Position numbers and translations under genes: made by a program | In this document: positions 43,953-52,491 of the stretch, piece by piece | How the letters are laid out: every line of letters begins with the position of its first letter | Numbering within the stretch: the first letter of the stretch is position 1 | Notes under the pieces: generated by a model | What the model was told of the DNA's origin: nothing | What the model saw: only the letters and a program-made list of their open reading frames with translations | Database searches by the model: none | Assembly: GCA_022824465.1 (NCBI GenBank) | Contig: JAJDZV010000008.1 | Coordinates: 434,001 to 498,000 of the forward strand | DNA: 64,000 bases | From: Anaerolineae bacterium | GTDB taxonomy: Bacteria; Chloroflexota; Anaerolineae; Aggregatilineales; Phototrophicaceae | Direction: 5' to 3'

Positions 43953-44924
43953 TCAGTCGCCCGCAAGCGCGCCAAGCTGCTGGGCAATGTCGCGCAGAAT
44001 CGCTATATCACTCTCCGGGCGCCGCGGCGAGTCCTTATGCGTCTGATCGGAGCTGATCCAGCCACGCAGTTTCAAGAATTGCGCCGCCGAATGTTTGTAG
44101 GCCGGCACCGGCGGCCGAAATGCCAGGAAGCCGAGATACTGCAGCAGGTCATTCAATTCATAAAAGCCGGGATCGCCCGTCAGCCACATCCGATCGCGCC
44201 TGGCGAACAAGTCCGGCGCAAAGGTGCTTAGCCCCAGAAGATAGTCACTGCCGTAAATCACCATATCGACAGCCAGATCATTGCCAGTATAGACTTTGAA
44301 ATCAGGTCTGACCGCGTCCCGCAACCGCAGCCGTTCCCATTCCAACTGTCGGCTCAATGACGAATGCTTCGCGCCCGCGCAAGCCGATATGCCCATCAGA
44401 CCGCGATAGGTTTCGAGGTCATATATCGCGCCGAATGGAGCGAACATTTGGCCCAATTCAAATGCGATGAAGCGGTCGCTCTTCTCGGAAACCGTCTCAT
44501 ATGAGCGGATGATGTCCGCGCCCGAACCCCCGGTCAAACCGTAGGACTGGAAAATGATTGGCGTGCCGCCGAAACTCTGAATGCTCTCGACCTGGCTGAA
44601 ATAGGCGTCGGCGTCGAAAGCTGAGCCAGGCTCATCGGCGACAAAGGCGCCGGCCACAAACTCCCCGCCGGCCAGGGCATCGCGCGCCAGCGCCAGCACG
44701 CGCCGCCGTTGCGCTTCCGTGATGAAGTTGGCGTAACCCGTGTCCATATTGACCGCCGGCGTCAATCCGGCTTCGGCGGTGCGCAATACATGATCAGCCA
44801 GTCCCTTCCAGTCGATTTCAAAGCTGTCATGGAAGGGCAGCAAAATCGCCGAGATGCCGCTGATCTCGCGCCGCGGACGGATCATCGCCTGCGGGTTGAT
44901 CGCTGTTTCTACGTAATCCATCAT
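43953..44924 (-). CDS. DHDPS-like (class I aldolase family) protein
   Basis: A 323-residue protein of the dihydrodipicolinate synthase/N-acetylneuraminate lyase superfamily. [20 protein letters not shown] marks the first strand and helix, and [22 protein letters not shown] the usual second motif region. [10 protein letters not shown] near residue 200 offers a Lys where the Schiff-base Lys usually lies, though alignment is uncertain. Such enzymes often cleave or form pyruvate adducts of sugar acids, but members with changed substrate loops exist. I choose the ATG at 44,924; the next codon is also ATG. It lies between the PhyH-like and OYE-like genes. Confidence 0.7.
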
Positions 44925-44974
44925 CCTGCTTGTCCTATTCTCTTTAAATCCAACCAGTTCACGCGAAAGGTTTT

Positions 44975-45745
44975 TCATTCGTTGGCGGGTGATATCTCCG
45001 CCACTGGCGCAATCACGTAGCGCGGATTCTCCTTCAGCAGACCCAGATCCTCGCCGGCTCGCGTCGCCCGCGCATCATCGCGATGAAACTGCACGGCATA
45101 AGCCAAACGCGGCTGGTCGGTGCGGTTCGCGCCAGATCCGTGTAATGTCAAGCGCGTAAAAGCCACGGCGTCGCCCGGCATCATGCGCAGCGGCAAGAAT
45201 CGGTCCGGCTCGACCGCTACGGTCCGATGGCCGTCTCTATCATCGCTTTCAATCGAGTCCAGCGTTCCGTTCAGATGCGTCCCTGGCGCTATTTGCAAAC
45301 AGCCATTCTCCGGACTCATCTCTCCCAAGGCGAACCAGATGTTGATGCCGGGACCAGAAAAGCGCGTATATTGATTGTCCTGATGAAAGTGGAAGCGGCC
45401 GCCGCCTCCGCCGCTCTTGACCGCTGTAAAGGGCAGATACAGCGTTGAGGGTCCGCCCATGAGCCGCGCCGCAATCGCCAGCAGCGCCTCGCTGTGGATC
45501 AGCCTTGCCAGCTCCCAATGCGCCAGATACTGCCGGCTTTGACGCAACTTGTCCTTCGACGTGGTCGCCCGGCGCAAGTCCGCTCGACCGATGCCGAGGC
45601 CTTCCACAACTTGCAAAACTTCGTCAGCCAGCGTCGCCGCATTCGGCCGACTTATCAGGCCGGGCAGCACAAGGTAGCCAGATTCGTTGTAGAATCGCGC
45701 TTCGTTGTCGGTCAGTTCCCGGTAACGCAGTATTTCCCGCGCCAT
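44975..45745 (-). CDS. Phytanoyl-CoA dioxygenase (PhyH)-like protein
   Basis: A 256-residue Fe(II)/2-oxoglutarate-dependent dioxygenase homologue. The metal site is FHFHQDNQY (His and Asp) and a later His in [20 protein letters not shown], which also supplies the Arg that holds 2-oxoglutarate. Residue 16 onward shows [10 protein letters not shown], the usual start of the fold. PhyH relatives hydroxylate diverse substrates. Start: ATG 45,745, since the promoter predicted on the minus strand begins near 45,800. It leads a three-gene unit with the DHDPS-like and OYE-like genes. Confidence 0.82.
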
Positions 45746-45793
45746 CAGCGCCCAATCCCTCGGTCCATTGGCCTTTACATTCGCCGCCAGCGA

Positions 45794-45844
45794 CTTGGAT
45801 TTAGCCACTATAGCGTATATTATCACCGAATCGCCTGGTGACAA
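45794..45844. promoter_or_regulatory. Divergent promoter region of the PhyH-like and creatininase-like units
   Basis: Minus strand: TTGTCA (45844-45839) with TAATAT about 16 bp away, and a second possible -10, TATAGT (45812-45807). Plus strand: TTGGAT (45794-45799) and TATATT (45816-45821) with a 16-bp spacer. TCACC at 45823-45827 and GGTGA at 45837-45841 form a short inverted repeat between them. The two units may be controlled together; the regulator is not known. Confidence 0.45.
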
Positions 45845-45873
45845 CGTGAGCCAAAGCAATAGCAGGATGAATT

Positions 45874-46575
45874 ATGCTAATTTCGGAAATGAACTGGATG
45901 CAAGTCGAGCAGTTCCTTGCGAAGGATGATCGCTGTATCCTGCCCGCCGGCAGCACTGAGCAGCATGCCTATCTCAGCCTCTGCGTCGACGCGATCCTCG
46001 CCGCCCGCCTCGCCCGTGAAGTCGGCGCGCGGGCGAACGTGCCCGTGTTTCCGGTCATACCCTATGGCCTTGCGCAGCAATGGACCGCCTTCCCCGGCAC
46101 AGTGACGCTGCGAGTAGAGACATATCTCGCGCTGATCCGCGATGCGCTAGATAGCATTCGCCGCGCTGGATTTCGCCGCATCCTGCTCATCAACGGCCAT
46201 GGCGGCAATGCGCCGGCACAAGGCATGCTGCGCGAATGGATGATGGACAACCCCGATTCTACGGTCAAGTGGCATAACTGGTACAATGCCCCCCGCACTT
46301 GGCAAAAAGTGCTTGAGACTGATCCCGTCGGCTCACATGCTTCTTGGATGGAGAACTACCCCTGGACGCGGCTCGCTGGCGTTTCCTTGCCCAAAGGCGC
46401 GAAAGCGCAAACCGATTTGAATCATCTCGCGCTCATGACGCCGCAGAAAACCCGCGAGCAACTCGACGATGGCAATATGGGCGGCCGTTACCAGCGACCG
46501 GATGCAGAAATGCTGGCGATCTGGCAAGTGGCGCTTGACGAAACGCTCGCCCTGCTCGAAGGAGGCTGGAGCTAA
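45874..46575 (+). CDS. Creatininase-family hydrolase
   Basis: A 233-residue creatinine amidohydrolase-family metalloenzyme. LPAGSTEQHAYLSLCVDAIL carries the Glu, His and Asp metal ligands, and LLINGHGGN the second motif; GSHASWMEN adds a Glu-containing motif. Family members open cyclic amides or remove formamide groups (creatininase, ArfB/MftE-like), so the reaction is uncertain. The stop TAA and the next gene's ATG share one base. It heads a three-gene unit with a ketopantoate-reductase-like gene and an SDR. Confidence 0.85.
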   Translation: MLISEMNWMQVEQFLAKDDRCILPAGSTEQHAYLSLCVDAILAARLAREVGARANVPVFPVIPYGLAQQWTAFPGTVTLRVETYLALIRDALDSIRRAGFRRILLINGHGGNAPAQGMLREWMMDNPDSTVKWHNWYNAPRTWQKVLETDPVGSHASWMENYPWTRLAGVSLPKGAKAQTDLNHLALMTPQKTREQLDDGNMGGRYQRPDAEMLAIWQVALDETLALLEGGWS

Positions 46576-47582
46576 TGACTACCCTGATATGGGGCGCCGG
46601 CGCCATCGGCGGCACGATCGGCGCGTATCTTACACAAGCGGGACACGAGGTACTCTTTGTCGACATCGTGCCTGAGCACGTCAAGGCGATCAACCAATCC
46701 GGCTTGCGCATCACCGGTCCGCTCGACGAATTCAGCGCGCGCGCGCCCGCCAGGACGCCTGAGAGTCTGACCGGGCGTTTCAAGACGATCCTCCTCTGCA
46801 CCAAATCCCAGCACACGCGAGGCGCCTGTGAATCGCTCGCGCCCTTCCTAGCGGACGACGGCGTGGTCGTTTCAGCGCAGAACGGATTGAACGAGCTAAT
46901 CATCCGCGATATTGTCGGCGCGGAACAGACGCTGGGCTGCTTCGTCAACTTCAGTGCCGATTACCACGCGCCAGGCGAGATTCTATTCGGCGGTCGCGGC
47001 GCAGTCGTTCTCGGGGAGCTTGACGGCAGCATGACGCCGCGGCTGCAAAAACTGGGCGCCCTCCTCCGCTGTTTCGACGAAGACGCCACGACCACTGACA
47101 ATATCTGGGGCTATCTCTGGGGCAAGGAGGCTTATGGCGCCATGCTCTTCGTCTCCGCCCTGACGCACCAAAGCATCAGCGAAGCGCTTGGCGACCAGCG
47201 CTACCGCCACGTTTACATTCGCGCCGCCCGCGAAATCCTGGAGCTGGCTGACGCGCTCAAAATCGCGGTCTATGGCTTTAACGGCTTCGAGCCCGCCGCA
47301 TTCTTGGCGAATGACGCCGCGGCAATCGGTCAGTCGCTCGACGCCTTAATCGCCTTTAACAAGCTTTCGGCCAAGACGCACAGCGGCATCTGGCGCGATC
47401 TCGCCGTCCGTAAACGGGCGACCGAAGTTCTCATGTACCAACCCCTGCTGGCGCAAGCAGAAATAGCGGGTTTGCCCCTGTCACTGACGCGCCGCTGGAT
47501 CGAGATGGTCGGAGAAATCGAAAAGGGCGAGCGCGAACAAGGCACAGAAAACCTCGACGAACTGAAGGCGGAGTTTCCATGA
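46575..47582 (+). CDS. Ketopantoate reductase-family dehydrogenase (ApbA/PanE-like)
   Basis: A 335-residue NADPH-dependent 2-dehydropantoate 2-reductase homologue. The nucleotide-binding start is LIWGAGAIGGTIGAYLT; SAQNGLNEL and WGYLWGKEAYGAML give the usual second motif and catalytic Lys, followed by the helical ApbA C-terminal domain. In most bacteria this enzyme makes pantoate for CoA. Here it is locked between a creatininase-like and an SDR gene, overlapping both, so a catabolic reduction is as likely as a biosynthetic one. Confidence 0.83.
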   Translation: MTTLIWGAGAIGGTIGAYLTQAGHEVLFVDIVPEHVKAINQSGLRITGPLDEFSARAPARTPESLTGRFKTILLCTKSQHTRGACESLAPFLADDGVVVSAQNGLNELIIRDIVGAEQTLGCFVNFSADYHAPGEILFGGRGAVVLGELDGSMTPRLQKLGALLRCFDEDATTTDNIWGYLWGKEAYGAMLFVSALTHQSISEALGDQRYRHVYIRAAREILELADALKIAVYGFNGFEPAAFLANDAAAIGQSLDALIAFNKLSAKTHSGIWRDLAVRKRATEVLMYQPLLAQAEIAGLPLSLTRRWIEMVGEIEKGEREQGTENLDELKAEFP

Positions 47583-48352
47583 ATATCGCTTTTGACGACA
47601 AGACAGTCATCGTCACGGGTGCGGCTCATGGCTTCGGTCGCGCGATCGCCCGTGAATTCGCGGCGCTCGGCGCATCCGTCTGGGCTTGCGACATCATCGC
47701 TGAAGAACTGGCGGAGACGGACAGAATCTGCCAAGACCTGCCCGGCGCGTGTCAGGTCAAAGTCGTCGATGTTCGCGACCGCGCGGCCGTCTTCGCCTTT
47801 GTCAACGAGATCCTGGCGGAAGACGAGAGCGTCCATGTTCTCGTCAACAATGCCGGCGGCGTGCTCGGCCAGGTCGGCCGTCCGTTGGAGGCGATCAGCG
47901 AAGACGACTGGGACAGCATCTTCGAAGTAAACACGCGCGGCGCATTTTACTTTGCGCAGGCGGTCGCCCCCAGCATGAAGGCGCAGCGCTACGGCCGAAT
48001 CGTCAATATCTCAAGCGGCGCCGGTTTGGGCGTGAGCCTGACTGGCATCCAAGCCTATGCATCGGCGAAGGCGGCTCAGATCGGCTTGACGCGGCAACTG
48101 GCTCACGAGCTCGGCGCCTGGAATATCACGGTCAACAACATCGCGCCCGGCTTCGTCCTCTCCAATCCCAACTCCATCCGCCAATTCGAGTCCTACGGCG
48201 AAAACGGTCAGCGCGCGTTGATCGATCGTTTCGCATTGAAGCGGCTCGGCGCCGCGGAGGATATCGCCCATGGCGTGCTTTTCTTCGCCTCCGACTATGC
48301 CAATTGGATCACGGGTCAGGTGCTGTCTGTCGACGGTGGACGCCTGGGCTAA
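47579..48352 (+). CDS. Short-chain dehydrogenase/reductase
   Basis: A 257-residue classical SDR that oxidises or reduces hydroxy or keto groups with NAD(P). VTGAAHGFGRAIA is the cofactor motif, NNAGG the central motif, INISSGAGLG gives the catalytic Ser region and YASAK the catalytic Tyr and Lys; PGFVLSN follows. Its ATG overlaps the reductase stop (ATGA), so the three-gene unit is probably translated in coupled fashion. The substrate is unknown. About 180 bp of gene-free spacer follows. Confidence 0.92.
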   Translation: MNIAFDDKTVIVTGAAHGFGRAIAREFAALGASVWACDIIAEELAETDRICQDLPGACQVKVVDVRDRAAVFAFVNEILAEDESVHVLVNNAGGVLGQVGRPLEAISEDDWDSIFEVNTRGAFYFAQAVAPSMKAQRYGRIVNISSGAGLGVSLTGIQAYASAKAAQIGLTRQLAHELGAWNITVNNIAPGFVLSNPNSIRQFESYGENGQRALIDRFALKRLGAAEDIAHGVLFFASDYANWITGQVLSVDGGRLG

Positions 48353-48529: not shown

Positions 48530-50797
48530 TTACCGCCCTTGCAAGGCCTCCAGCACCCTTGGCGCGGTCATTGGTGTCTGTGACATGCGTACGCCAGTGG
48601 CGTGGGCGACCGCATTGGCAATCGCCGCCACAGTCGGTATAACGGGTGGTTCGCCGACGCCGCGCGCGCCGTACGGTCCGCTGACTGATGGCACTTCGAC
48701 GATCTGCGTGTCTATCGGCGCCGCTTGAACCGCGTCGGGCATGGCGTAATCCATCCATGAGCCGGTGAGCAGTTGTCCGTCGTCATCGTAGCGCATCTCT
48801 TCCAGCAGCGCCCAGCCGACTCCCTGCACTGCGCCGCCTTGCATTTGCCCTTCGACAGCCAGCGGATTGATCGCCCGGCCGACCTCCTGCACGACCGCCA
48901 GGTTATGCAAGTTGATATCGCCGGTCTCCTCGTCCACCTCTACCTCGGCAATCTGCGCGCAGAAAGACGGCGCGCGGTCCGTGATCGCCTGCCGCCCGTT
49001 GCCGTGAATCGGCTCATAACGACCGCCGAAAGTCATCGACTTGCCGGCGATTTCGCCCAGGCTGATCGACCGGTCCGGGAAGCCACGCACTTGCACACGG
49101 CCGTCAATGATTTCCAGGTCCTCAGCCGACACTTCAAATTCCTCCGCGGCGATCGCGAGCGTCTGACGGCGGGCGTCCTCCGCCGCCCGGACGACCGCGG
49201 CGCCCAGCGTATACAGGGTCTTGCTGCCGCCTACTCCGCCGCCATAGGGCGCGCTGTCAGTGTCGCTGTAAACGAAGCGAACGCGCTCCGGCTCAATGCC
49301 GAAGGTTTCGGCCGCGAGCATGGCAAATGACGTCGGCGTTCCCGATAGGTCTGCCGTGCCAATCTGCACCTGCAAGACGCCGTCGCGATTCAACTTGCAG
49401 ACCGACGCGCCCGGCTCCAGACCGCCCATCCAGCCGCCGATGGCGATGCCGACGCCGCGTCCTTTATCTCGAGACGCCTCGCGATTCTTCCATAGCGGAT
49501 GTTCACGCGCCGCCTCCAACGTCTCGACCATGCCAATAACGGGGAAATCGCCCCCGTCCGGCGCCGGATCTCCCGAGCGCGCCGCGTTCTTGAGGCGCAG
49601 CTCAACGGCGTCGATGCCCAACTGCGCGGCCGCTTCGTCGATTAGCGTCTCCACAGCCATAAAAGCGGTGGGCGATGTCGGCGCGCGGTAAGCGCCAACC
49701 GACTGCTTGTTCGTGATGACATTGGTCGATTCGAGCAAGAGATTCTCGCAGCGGTAGAAGCTAGCGAATTGCATGGCGGCGAATCCGCCCAGGCCAGCCG
49801 GATAGACGCCGGTATCAGCCAGCACATTCGACTGCATCGCCACCAGCGAGCCATCGGACTTGAATCCCAGCTTGGCGTGGATCCGCAAAGCCGGCGCCGG
49901 ATTTGTAGAAAGCAACTCTTCGCTGCGCGTCAGTATCAAGCTGAGCGGCCGGCCCACGGTAGCCGAGACCAGAGCGATCAAGGCTTCGTACAAGCCAAAT
50001 TTAGCGCCAAATGCGCCGCCGACCGGCATGCCGTAGACAGTCACGTCGGATTCCGGCACGCCAAGAATATCGGCGACATCCAGGCGCGCGCCAAAAGGCG
50101 ACTGCACGCTGCCCCACATGGTGGCGCCGCCAGTGACCGGATTGGGTTGCACGACCCAGCCCTGCGTCTCGATTGAACTTTGATGCACCATCGGCGTCTC
50201 AAAGCTGCGCTCGACGACTACATCGGCTGAGGAAAAGGCCGCCGCCACATCGCCAGCTGCGTGATGCGTTTTGCCGGCGATATTGGAGGGTTCGCCTTCG
50301 TCCTCTTCCGACTCGCCGCCGGTGTCCGCTCCGTGCGCCGCTTCATCTTCGGCGCCAGTCGGGATGCCATTCGGCCAGATCACCGGCGCGTCTTCCGCGA
50401 GCGCGGCGTCGATTGTGGTAACCGCCACCAGCGGCTCGTAGTCGACCTCGACCAGCTCGGCGCCATCAGCGGCGGCCGCCGGCGTGTCTGCCAGCACCAG
50501 CGCAATCGGCTGCCCCACGAAGATCACGCGATCGCGAGCCAGCATCAGCTTGGCGCGCGACGAAGGCGCCACCGCAGGCAAGTCCTCCGCCGTCACTACC
50601 GAATGGACGCCGGGGACAGCCAGGGCGGCGCTCGCATCAATGCCGCTGATATTGGCGTGCGCGTAACTGCTGAGAACGAAGCGCGCGTGCAGCATACCGG
50701 CCACCTTGAGATCGCCCGTATATTTCAAGTTGCCCGTGACCTTGGCCGGTCCGTCTATCATCGGCGTCGGCACGCCTACAAAGGAAAGGTCTGACAT
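48530..50797 (-). CDS. Molybdopterin-binding subunit of a xanthine dehydrogenase-type hydroxylase
   Basis: A 755-residue xanthine-dehydrogenase-family large subunit, which holds the molybdenum cofactor and hydroxylates a heterocycle or aldehyde. The N-terminal a/b hammerhead (DGPAKVTGNLKYTGDL, VGQPIALVLADT) is followed by the Mo-binding domains: GGAFGAKFG, AYRAPTSPTAFMAVE, GTADLSGTPTSF and near the end GARGVGEPPVIPTVAAIANA with the catalytic Glu. An acidic, repeat-like insertion (about residues 150-182, GESEEDEGEPSN) is unusual. The small FeS and FAD subunits normally encoded next to it are absent from the window. It lies 42 bp after the aminotransferase homologue, probably in one transcript. 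Confidence 0.87.
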   Translation of the reverse strand: MSDLSFVGVPTPMIDGPAKVTGNLKYTGDLKVAGMLHARFVLSSYAHANISGIDASAALAVPGVHSVVTAEDLPAVAPSSRAKLMLARDRVIFVGQPIALVLADTPAAAADGAELVEVDYEPLVAVTTIDAALAEDAPVIWPNGIPTGAEDEAAHGADTGGESEEDEGEPSNIAGKTHHAAGDVAAAFSSADVVVERSFETPMVHQSSIETQGWVVQPNPVTGGATMWGSVQSPFGARLDVADILGVPESDVTVYGMPVGGAFGAKFGLYEALIALVSATVGRPLSLILTRSEELLSTNPAPALRIHAKLGFKSDGSLVAMQSNVLADTGVYPAGLGGFAAMQFASFYRCENLLLESTNVITNKQSVGAYRAPTSPTAFMAVETLIDEAAAQLGIDAVELRLKNAARSGDPAPDGGDFPVIGMVETLEAAREHPLWKNREASRDKGRGVGIAIGGWMGGLEPGASVCKLNRDGVLQVQIGTADLSGTPTSFAMLAAETFGIEPERVRFVYSDTDSAPYGGGVGGSKTLYTLGAAVVRAAEDARRQTLAIAAEEFEVSAEDLEIIDGRVQVRGFPDRSISLGEIAGKSMTFGGRYEPIHGNGRQAITDRAPSFCAQIAEVEVDEETGDINLHNLAVVQEVGRAINPLAVEGQMQGGAVQGVGWALLEEMRYDDDGQLLTGSWMDYAMPDAVQAAPIDTQIVEVPSVSGPYGARGVGEPPVIPTVAAIANAVAHATGVRMSQTPMTAPRVLEALQGR

Positions 50798-50839
50798 AGA
50801 TGATCGCTCCTCACTATGTGGCAAATGACTTAATGAATC

Positions 50840-51757
50840 TTAACCGATGGACGCGAACTTCACCACCTCAACCCCTTCCTTGCGCGTGCGCTCGCGGAAG
50901 AGCGCGCTCAGCCGCGCCGTCATTTCGCCCGGGGCTCCCGCGCCAATCCGCCGGCCATCCAGCTCCACCACCGGCGCCAGCTCGCCCATCGTGCCGCTGC
51001 AGAACATTTCATCGGCGCGATAGACCTCGGTTAGGGACAAGTTCTTCACCCGATTCGGAATGCCCTCGCGCTGGCAGATCTCCAGCACGGTCGACCGCGT
51101 AATGCCTTTCGGACAGGCGCCAGTGTCCGAAGTCATCACGACGCCGTCTCTGACGATGAAGACATGCGTGGCATTGGTCTCGGCGACATAGCCCTGGTAA
51201 TCCAGCATCAGGGCATCATCGACGCCGGCGGCGTTGGCTTGGATCTTGGCGAGAATGGAATTGATTAGATTGCAGGAATGGATATTCTGATCGACGCAAT
51301 CGGGCGGGATGCGCCGGACGCTCGATGTGATCAAGCGGATGCCGCGCTTGTCATAGACCGGCGGCTTGTGCTCAGCCAGTACAATCAAGGTCGGGCCCTG
51401 GGTGTTCAAGCGCGTATCCATGCCGCTGGTGTACTTGAGGCCGCGGCTCAAGGTCAAACGAATGTGTACGCCATCGGTCATATTGTTCGCCGCGAGCGTC
51501 TTCCTGATTTCGGCAATTATTTCTTCGTGCGGCGGGATCACGGAGAAAGCCATGGCTTTGGCGGAATCGCGCAGCCGGTCGAGATGCGGAACAAGCTTGA
51601 ATATCCGCCCCTGGTACAAGCGCAATCCCTCCCAAACCGCGTCGCCGCCTTGCACCGCCGAGTCGAAGGGGCTGATGCCGGCGACATCGCGATGATACAG
51701 CTCGCCATTGATATTGATCAGGAGGTCCGCGTTCTTGGGGTTGAACTCTTGCTTCAT
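50840..51757 (-). CDS. Fold-IV aminotransferase homologue lacking the PLP lysine
   Basis: A 305-residue protein of the branched-chain/D-amino-acid aminotransferase fold (PLP fold type IV): FDSAVQGGDAVWEGLRLYQG, HIRLTLSRGL, AGVDDALMLDYQGYVAETNA, CPKGITRSTVLEIC and TGTMGELAPVVELDGRRIG-like C-terminal motif. In family members the segment before NLL carries the catalytic Lys, as in the Bacillus D-amino-acid transaminase CDIKSLNLL. Here the aligned stretch reads QNIHSCNLINSILAK, so His takes the Lys position; the Lys after SILA aligns with a non-catalytic one. Start: ATG 51,757, which overlaps the sulfotransferase-like stop. The activity is unclear. Confidence 0.82.
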   Translation of the reverse strand: MKQEFNPKNADLLININGELYHRDVAGISPFDSAVQGGDAVWEGLRLYQGRIFKLVPHLDRLRDSAKAMAFSVIPPHEEIIAEIRKTLAANNMTDGVHIRLTLSRGLKYTSGMDTRLNTQGPTLIVLAEHKPPVYDKRGIRLITSSVRRIPPDCVDQNIHSCNLINSILAKIQANAAGVDDALMLDYQGYVAETNATHVFIVRDGVVMTSDTGACPKGITRSTVLEICQREGIPNRVKNLSLTEVYRADEMFCSGTMGELAPVVELDGRRIGAGAPGEMTARLSALFRERTRKEGVEVVKFASIG

Positions 51758-52491
51758 TAGTCCGCCTCGCAAATGCAGTAACGCGCCATCTGCTTGTAAA
51801 GCATTTGGCACTCGTCCAGCAAGTCATTCAGATGCGCCGGCAGTATCGCGTGGTCTTCTCGATAGGGCGCGAATCCGGTCGAACGCATCACGCTGCCATA
51901 CCAGTGCTCAGCCCAAACGCCATCGCTGGGGTGTGGACCGGGCGGCCAACTCAACATCGCCGGATCAAACGCCAGGTCCAGCGCGCCGCAAAGACGCCGC
52001 AAGGCAGCCTCCGGATCGAGCAGCACATCGCGGGCGCGAATCACCGGCGGGACCTCGCCCGTGGCGTCACAAACGTAGTTGAAAAGCTCCACCTGCTGCG
52101 GCAGGCCGGTCTGCTCGAGGCGCGGCTTCGCAATCACCTTTGCGAAGGACGCGAGCATCCGGCGCGGATCGCGAATGAGAAAACAGTTCGAGACCTTCAG
52201 CAGCCAATGGCGACTAATGTGTTCGAGCATGTGCTGAGTCATGTGCTTTTGATAGAAGACCGCTTCGCTGGCGCTGTTCGCAAGCAAGCTGTCCACGACA
52301 CGCCGCCAATCAGTCTCGCCCTGCCGAATGATCGTAGCGGCGCCCGGATGGTCGTAACCGGTCTGCTGCAAGTAGTGGGCATAGAAGGGTTCGTCGATGA
52401 CGCGTGTATCCATACGGCTCGCCCACGAACGCATCAGCGCCGTCGAGATATTGCGCGGTCCCGACCACATCGCTATGATTCGCTGCGCCAC
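51757..52491 (-). CDS. Sulfotransferase-like P-loop protein paired with the aminotransferase homologue
   Basis: A 244-residue protein with a sulfotransferase-type fold. The 5'-phosphosulfate-binding start reads MWSGPRNISTALMRSWASR, and the second conserved motif is CFLIRDPRRMLASFAKV; YQKHMTQHML and DGVWAEHWYGSVMRSTGF are typical of this subgroup. The start is a GTG with GGGAGG 11 bases upstream. Its stop and the aminotransferase ATG share one base (TAATG). I recall plant proteins annotated as branched-chain-aminotransferase-like that fuse this kind of domain to an aminotransferase domain, in the same order. Function unknown. Confidence 0.75.
   Translation of the reverse strand: MAQRIIAMWSGPRNISTALMRSWASRMDTRVIDEPFYAHYLQQTGYDHPGAATIIRQGETDWRRVVDSLLANSASEAVFYQKHMTQHMLEHISRHWLLKVSNCFLIRDPRRMLASFAKVIAKPRLEQTGLPQQVELFNYVCDATGEVPPVIRARDVLLDPEAALRRLCGALDLAFDPAMLSWPPGPHPSDGVWAEHWYGSVMRSTGFAPYREDHAILPAHLNDLLDECQMLYKQMARYCICEAD

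Follow-up and report, generated by a model that had tools for sequence, protein, structure and literature searches.

What can a protein with an aminotransferase fold do once its catalytic lysine has been replaced, and what ties it to a sulfotransferase encoded directly upstream? Two overlapping genes raise this question in a 64,000-nucleotide stretch of an Anaerolineae bacterium genome (GCA_022824465.1, contig JAJDZV010000008.1, positions 434,001 to 498,000; hereafter the window). One encodes a predicted sulfotransferase (ST) and the other an aminotransferase-like protein (AT) with the fold type IV architecture of pyridoxal 5'-phosphate (PLP) enzymes. An earlier note on this DNA had read the two genes as old, conserved partners, one of them with an altered active site. 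We put at roughly 0.5 the probability that ST and AT form one functional unit, in which sulfonation is combined with imine chemistry other than transamination. The pair is probably an unrecognised two-step enzyme that recurs in distantly related bacteria; already known are structures of a related, asparagine-type protein (PDB: 7z79, 9j32).

AT carries histidine in place of the Schiff-base lysine

The pair was found on the minus strand as the earlier note had placed it, with base 51757 common to both genes (Table 1). ST scores 169.5 bits against the Pfam model Sulfotransfer_5 (PF19798; cut-off 23.2). Its sequence and model identify it as a predicted 3'-phosphoadenosine 5'-phosphosulfate (PAPS) sulfotransferase, with 5' and 3' PAPS-binding motifs and the matching fold; sulfotransferases are the nearest solved folds to its AlphaFold2 model (predicted local distance difference test, pLDDT, 88.5). 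Three members of the ST family (P0126, P0150, P0217) are named 'HAD family hydrolase' in public records, probably a misannotation. AT scores 156.1 bits against Aminotran_4 (cut-off 28.5) and belongs to that family and fold. The segment QNIHSCNLINSILAK, to which the earlier note had drawn attention, is present in AT, and His160 stands at the lysine column of 5mqz, 5cm0 and 5e25 (...NIKSLNYLN...). AT has no lysine at the position where PLP-dependent aminotransferases form their Schiff base.

All 237 rows of the alignment, made up of 235 other proteins, AT itself, and the database entry for AT, have this histidine. The 236 distinct proteins behind these rows, AT included, came from the top of two hit lists, 6895 and 8000 matches long, obtained with joined ST-AT queries, and so represent the closer relatives. 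Among named species genomes, His was likewise read at 80 of 80 loci, the best 80 of 575 confirmed matches; because the His motif was part of one of the two scan patterns, this set is biased towards His. Because all of these rows and loci share it, His160 is no sequencing slip. In the genome that contains the window, four further Aminotran_4 proteins were found, and all carry Lys. Database records of the 80 loci name about ten phyla (Chloroflexi, Planctomycetota, Armatimonadetes, Abditibacteriaceae, Gemmatimonadetes, Acidobacteria, Actinomycetota, Gammaproteobacteria, Bacteroidetes, and Spartobacteria are among the names given), nearly all from metagenome-assembled records in which some taxon labels may be wrong.

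AT could still be an ordinary branched-chain or D-amino-acid transaminase that tolerates a substitution and happens to lie beside an unrelated ST. Many relatives do carry the database name branched-chain aminotransferase, though they lack the residue that defines this chemistry, and AT is 30–43% identical to the 29 lysine-bearing rows of our active-site alignment. Nonetheless, it falls under the curated cut-offs of all 19 NCBIfam models listed (best scores: PRK08320, 263.7 against 363; ilvE_I, 206.2 against 245.55), the lysine is gone throughout a clade, and a chance neighbourhood is contradicted by the near-perfect co-occurrence with ST described below. We consider this explanation highly improbable.

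A sister clade carries asparagine at the same site

In the Chloroflexota sample (301 genomes), six genomes held an AT relative of 42–44% identity with Asn at the lysine site. Asn also occupies this site in PDB 7z79 from Variovorax paradoxus, whose N174K mutant is 9j32. The changed active site of the earlier note stands as far as His at the lysine column is concerned, but the claim needs widening, since the lysine has been replaced in two ways, by His and by Asn. In a tree of 61 rows, single branches set apart the His rows (100/99), the Asn rows (100/100), and the joint His-Asn group (100/96), and a 40-row tree built without the active-site columns keeps the joint group at 98/90. Because the His and Asn rows form one clade, the loss of lysine may, on this sequence evidence, have been a single event.

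The Asn type was found in 25 sampled genomes, 19 of which also carry PF19798. Twelve of these 19 have linked genes in the order AT-ST, one has ST-AT, and six have ST elsewhere; the gene order is reversed relative to the window in 12 of the 13 linked cases. By eye, no shared third gene was obvious in ten Asn-type neighbourhoods with linked ST. Within the Asn clade, one subclade (L010–L013, L126, L132, and PDB 7z79) yielded no PF19798 in its six sampled genomes, the Variovorax genome itself not being among those searched, and adenosine 5'-phosphosulfate (APS) kinase was also not found in its four Chloroflexota genomes.

ST and AT occur together across phyla

At 60 of the 80 named loci, an ST relative lies directly upstream of AT on the same strand with a gap of at most 300 nt, and at three more it lies 357–1935 nt upstream. 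ST is absent from the flank of the remaining 17, three of which have less than 800 nt of upstream sequence; 11 of the corresponding genomes carry ST elsewhere and six do not. Short overlaps (-1 or -4 nt) occur in 13 of the 61 linked named loci tabulated. At least 14 listed bacterial proteins contain both domains in the order ST then AT, of which at least four (P0243, P0244, P0245, P0248) seem truncated or frame-shifted, perhaps through faulty assembly. Tandem Planctomycetota genes matching positions 3–552 of a joined profile (G390, G409, G419) were rejected as fusions, as a stop lies inside each match.

Co-occurrence was assessed in 699 genomes, comprising 149 Planctomycetota (the phylum of G318, Singulisphaera), 249 from the phylum of G319, whose record is titled Gammaproteobacteria and which is taken as Pseudomonadota, and 301 Chloroflexota, a phylum name deduced from named relatives. 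A recognised lysine-less AT was present in 48 (21, 19, and 8, respectively); the site residue was read in each except G441, where the contig ends inside the gene. Near-full-length PF19798 matches (E 2e-42 or better) were present in 42 (21, 17, and 4), leaving uncounted two more Chloroflexota with weak partial matches (E 2.6e-7 and 7e-4) and weaker extra matches in four genomes that already have the pair (G351, G443, G539, G698). All 42 ST genomes fall within the 48 with a lysine-less AT, and the six AT genomes lacking ST (G694, G719, G197, G173, G245, G273) are all of the Asn type. Fisher's test for the first two phyla gave p = 4e-49, with two centre genomes excluded and kinship not corrected. 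PF19798 was found in 0 of 14 control genomes.

The AT search scored four to nine candidates per genome, and the site was read in few of the weaker matches. Forty Planctomycetota genomes had only AT matches of 1e-52 to 1e-76 (three read, all Lys), five Pseudomonadota genomes had matches of 1e-55 to 1e-69 (one read, Lys), and in Chloroflexota the site was read in the best 30 loci. Should any of the weaker matches lack lysine, more genomes would count as having AT but no ST; that every ST genome has a lysine-less AT would be unaffected. Taken with the adjacency at 60 of 80 loci and the occasional two-domain proteins, this near-perfect co-occurrence bears out the conserved partnership proposed earlier, and together with the two-domain proteins it rules out chance adjacency of unrelated neighbours. 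It also connects PAPS with imine chemistry in a concrete, testable way, in bacteria recorded under about ten phyla and, should the proposed plant fusion prove correct, in plants too.

Clustering of open reading frames (ORFs) at the 80 loci revealed no third family that is widely common outside an Anaerolineae/Chloroflexi set (L036–L054). The longest-ORF rule recovered AT in only 55 and ST in only 37 of the 80 loci, often taking an antisense frame, and a third partner may therefore have been missed. One genome (L182, G320:C43) has a divergent PF19798-like ST beside a gene that looks by eye like a nonribosomal peptide synthetase, with its ST-AT pair elsewhere.

The pair is associated with PAPS supply. 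APS kinase, which is needed to make PAPS, was found in 41 of the 42 ST-positive genomes (the exception is G504, with 57 of 62 candidates scored), and 7 of 12 genomes that have AT but no ST carry it as well. Strong matches in Planctomycetota (E 1e-30 or better, hand-counted, with no more than 23 candidates of any genome scored) were present in 21/21 ST-positive versus 73/128 ST-negative genomes (p = 2.5e-5; omitting the centre genome, p = 3.9e-5).

The cofactor pocket is retained in the His clade

We compared active sites in an alignment of 99 His, 26 Asn, and 29 Lys rows, which are not independent and include a second copy of AT. The residues that we take to form the phosphate cup in fold IV enzymes (Arg61, Gly218, Thr220, Gly255, and Thr256, as G218-I/V-T220 and G255-T256) are retained in 99/99 His rows, the window included. 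Glu193, presumably the ligand of the pyridine N1, is present in 99/99 His and 29/29 Lys rows and is Thr or Ser in the 26 Asn rows. Position 164, whose tyrosine we assume contacts O3', is Tyr in 97% of Lys rows, Leu in 90% of His rows, and Lys or Arg in Asn rows. As aligned, the His clade has kept the predicted cofactor pocket and lost the Schiff-base lysine. Ser or Thr at N1 resembles elimination-type PLP enzymes; this is compatible with an elimination reading for the Asn clade and proves nothing.

Has another lysine taken over? Three lysine columns are conserved in the His rows: 171 (also Lys in 18/29 Lys rows), 131 (15/26 Asn rows), and 108. Lys108 is specific to the groups that lost the catalytic lysine, in 99/99 His and 25/26 Asn rows and in 0/29 Lys rows. 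The equivalent loop of D-amino-acid transaminase and related enzymes reaches the active site; Lys108, whose loop may extend into the active site of the adjacent subunit, could form the Schiff base and leave the enzyme lysine-dependent. The arginine at 108 in one Asn-type row (L162) better suits an anion-binding role, and the loop is not placed by the monomer model. Loops 30–37, 108–120, and 157–162 of that model have pLDDT below 50, for which reason it cannot say whether another lysine fills the site. We judge a moved lysine to be improbable. Asn9, Trp42, His98, Glu129, and Asn195, along with Lys108 and others, are likewise shared by both lysine-less groups, each occurring in less than 30% of Lys rows.

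Alternatively, the AT-like protein may be non-catalytic or independent of PLP, serving as a binding or regulatory partner of ST or using its cup to hold PAPS, 3'-phosphoadenosine 5'-phosphate (PAP), or the ST substrate. The loss of both the Schiff-base lysine and the tyrosine to O3', and of Glu193 as well in the Asn clade, with the phosphate cup kept, fits such a role. Glu193 would be expected mainly with a pyridine cofactor, yet it is invariant in the His rows, and the catalytic column of the His clade is strictly His with no drift. These features make a non-catalytic or non-PLP role unlikely, albeit a possibility to be taken seriously.

A proposed sulfate-elimination mechanism

In the reading that we favour, the two proteins would act in sequence. 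With PAPS as donor, ST would sulfonate a small amino- or keto-acid (or amino-sugar-like) substrate at a hydroxyl, which would thereby become a leaving group. The AT-like protein, which would not be a normal transaminase, would hold pyridoxamine 5'-phosphate (PMP), or PLP, non-covalently and form an imine with the sulfonated substrate. His160 could then act as acid-base at C4' and expel sulfate, comparable to the histidine and C3-OH of the dehydratases ColD/E1, with Lys108 binding the sulfate or carboxylate. Hydrolysis would release a deoxygenated or unsaturated product, and half-transamination would recharge the cofactor. By analogy with these systems, sulfate elimination is a possible step, though unlikely to proceed exactly as written here. 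Equally tentative is the broader idea of a widespread two-protein 'sulfate-activated lyase', in which ST would install the sulfate and a lysine-less fold IV protein with free PMP or PLP would expel it through His, or through another solution in the Asn clade.

The order of the steps may also be the opposite, with AT making or presenting an amine or amino acid on which ST then acts, and a sulfate ester or sulfamate as the end product. Most characterised sulfotransferases make end products, and the AT-ST gene order in 12/13 linked Asn-clade genomes would suit such a pathway. A product-forming transaminase should, however, keep its lysine, and the sole PDB profile matches of ST are activating sulfotransferases. 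A sulfated end product therefore seems doubtful.

Three observations weigh against the sulfate-elimination mechanism. Glu193 is lost in the Asn clade, the ST tree is not split by AT type, and both His- and Asn-type genomes exist with AT but no ST. Reciprocal inheritance of ST with AT type was tested and is unsupported by the ST tree, whose outgroup is a single very long branch. Among the six flank-negative genomes without ST are four Gemmatimonadota (L085, L091, L102, and L108, in G307, G309, G314, and G316), one complete chromosome among them; two other loci named Gemmatimonadetes (L075 and L100) have ST. These four carry a His-type AT with PF19798 not found, and in G309 APS kinase was not found either. 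They offer a natural test of AT acting alone.

Gene pair and surroundings

Table 1. Positions of the gene pair and its key sites in the window.
Feature	Positions	Strand	Details
ST gene	51757..52491	minus	PF19798 Sulfotransfer_5, 244 aa, GTG start
AT gene	50840..51757	minus	PF01063 Aminotran_4, PLP fold type IV without catalytic Lys, 305 aa, ATG start
Base shared by the ST stop codon (TAA) and the AT start codon (ATG), TAATG	51757..51757	minus	
His160 codon of AT, catalytic Lys position	51278..51280	minus	alignment
Lys108 codon of AT, specific to lysine-less clades	51434..51436	minus	alignment column counts
Glu193 codon of AT, aligned with pyridine-N1 Glu of fold IV enzymes	51179..51181	minus	
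5'-PSB-like motif of ST, WSGPRNIST	52441..52467	minus	S10, G11, P12, R13, S16, T17 invariant
3'-PSB-like motif of ST, LIRDPRRMLAS	52147..52179	minus	R107, P109, S115 invariant

Invariance of the ST motifs was judged in two alignments (A1, 9 rows; A4, 22 rows), and the 5'- and 3'-phosphosulfate-binding (PSB) labels are ones that we assume apply. On the 3' side of AT, a lone molybdenum-hydroxylase large subunit (MoCoBD_1/2, Ald_Xan_dh_C) occupies 48530–50824 on the minus strand, its open frame starting 15 nt past the AT stop. In 17 named loci, every one within L036–L054, a molybdenum hydroxylase follows the pair, and it is a possible local operon partner. Further along, 43953–48352 holds a string of catabolic-looking genes, which by eye include dihydrodipicolinate-synthase-like and phytanoyl-CoA-dioxygenase-like members and by Pfam creatininase-like, PanE-like, and short-chain dehydrogenase members.

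Comparison with known systems

An exact-word search of the open-access literature found no paper that treats ST and AT together or describes a fold IV enzyme lacking the lysine, an absence that carries little weight, and none naming At3g05190 or At5g27410; for the pair, a sulfotransferase review (PMC11625862) was listed. These two Arabidopsis proteins, which the earlier note proposed as fused counterparts of the pair with a His at the lysine position, would consist of an N-terminal P-loop domain and an aminotransferase IV domain. The Variovorax protein 7z79, for which no literature was found, has Asn where the window AT has His and Ser where it has Glu193. Branched-chain aminotransferases of fold IV (5mqz, 5e25, PRK08320) share with AT the fold, the phosphate cup, and the N1 glutamate, and Foldseek alignments to the 5mqz/5e25 type give 40–42% identity; they have the Schiff-base Lys and Tyr, whereas AT has His and Leu.

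For ST, PDB profile matches with E no higher than 1 are confined to the CurM (5.7e-7) and Ols (7.9e-6) sulfotransferases, and these domains (4gbm, 4gox) are also its top folds, tied with tyrosylprotein sulfotransferase. CurM and Ols ST are polyketide synthase domains that work with a thioesterase, and the sulfate they install is a leaving group. The partner of the window ST is instead a PLP-fold protein.

The closest parallel for AT is found in the 3-dehydratases ColD/E1/SpnQ, aminotransferase relatives in which the catalytic Lys is also His. According to PMC8987622, this exchange marks the PMP dehydratases of fold type I, where the histidine acts as acid-base, taking a proton from PMP, and the C3-OH is expelled. 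ColD/E1/SpnQ belong to fold type I and the window AT to fold type IV; because the fold types differ, the likeness is probably convergent. AT offers a second, probably independent case of Lys-to-His replacement in an aminotransferase fold. We know of no sulfotransferase partner for ColD/E1/SpnQ. If the sulfate-activated lyase proposed here is correct, the ST-AT pair would be an independently evolved fold IV counterpart of ColD/E1, one that would extend to plants if the proposed plant fusion holds.
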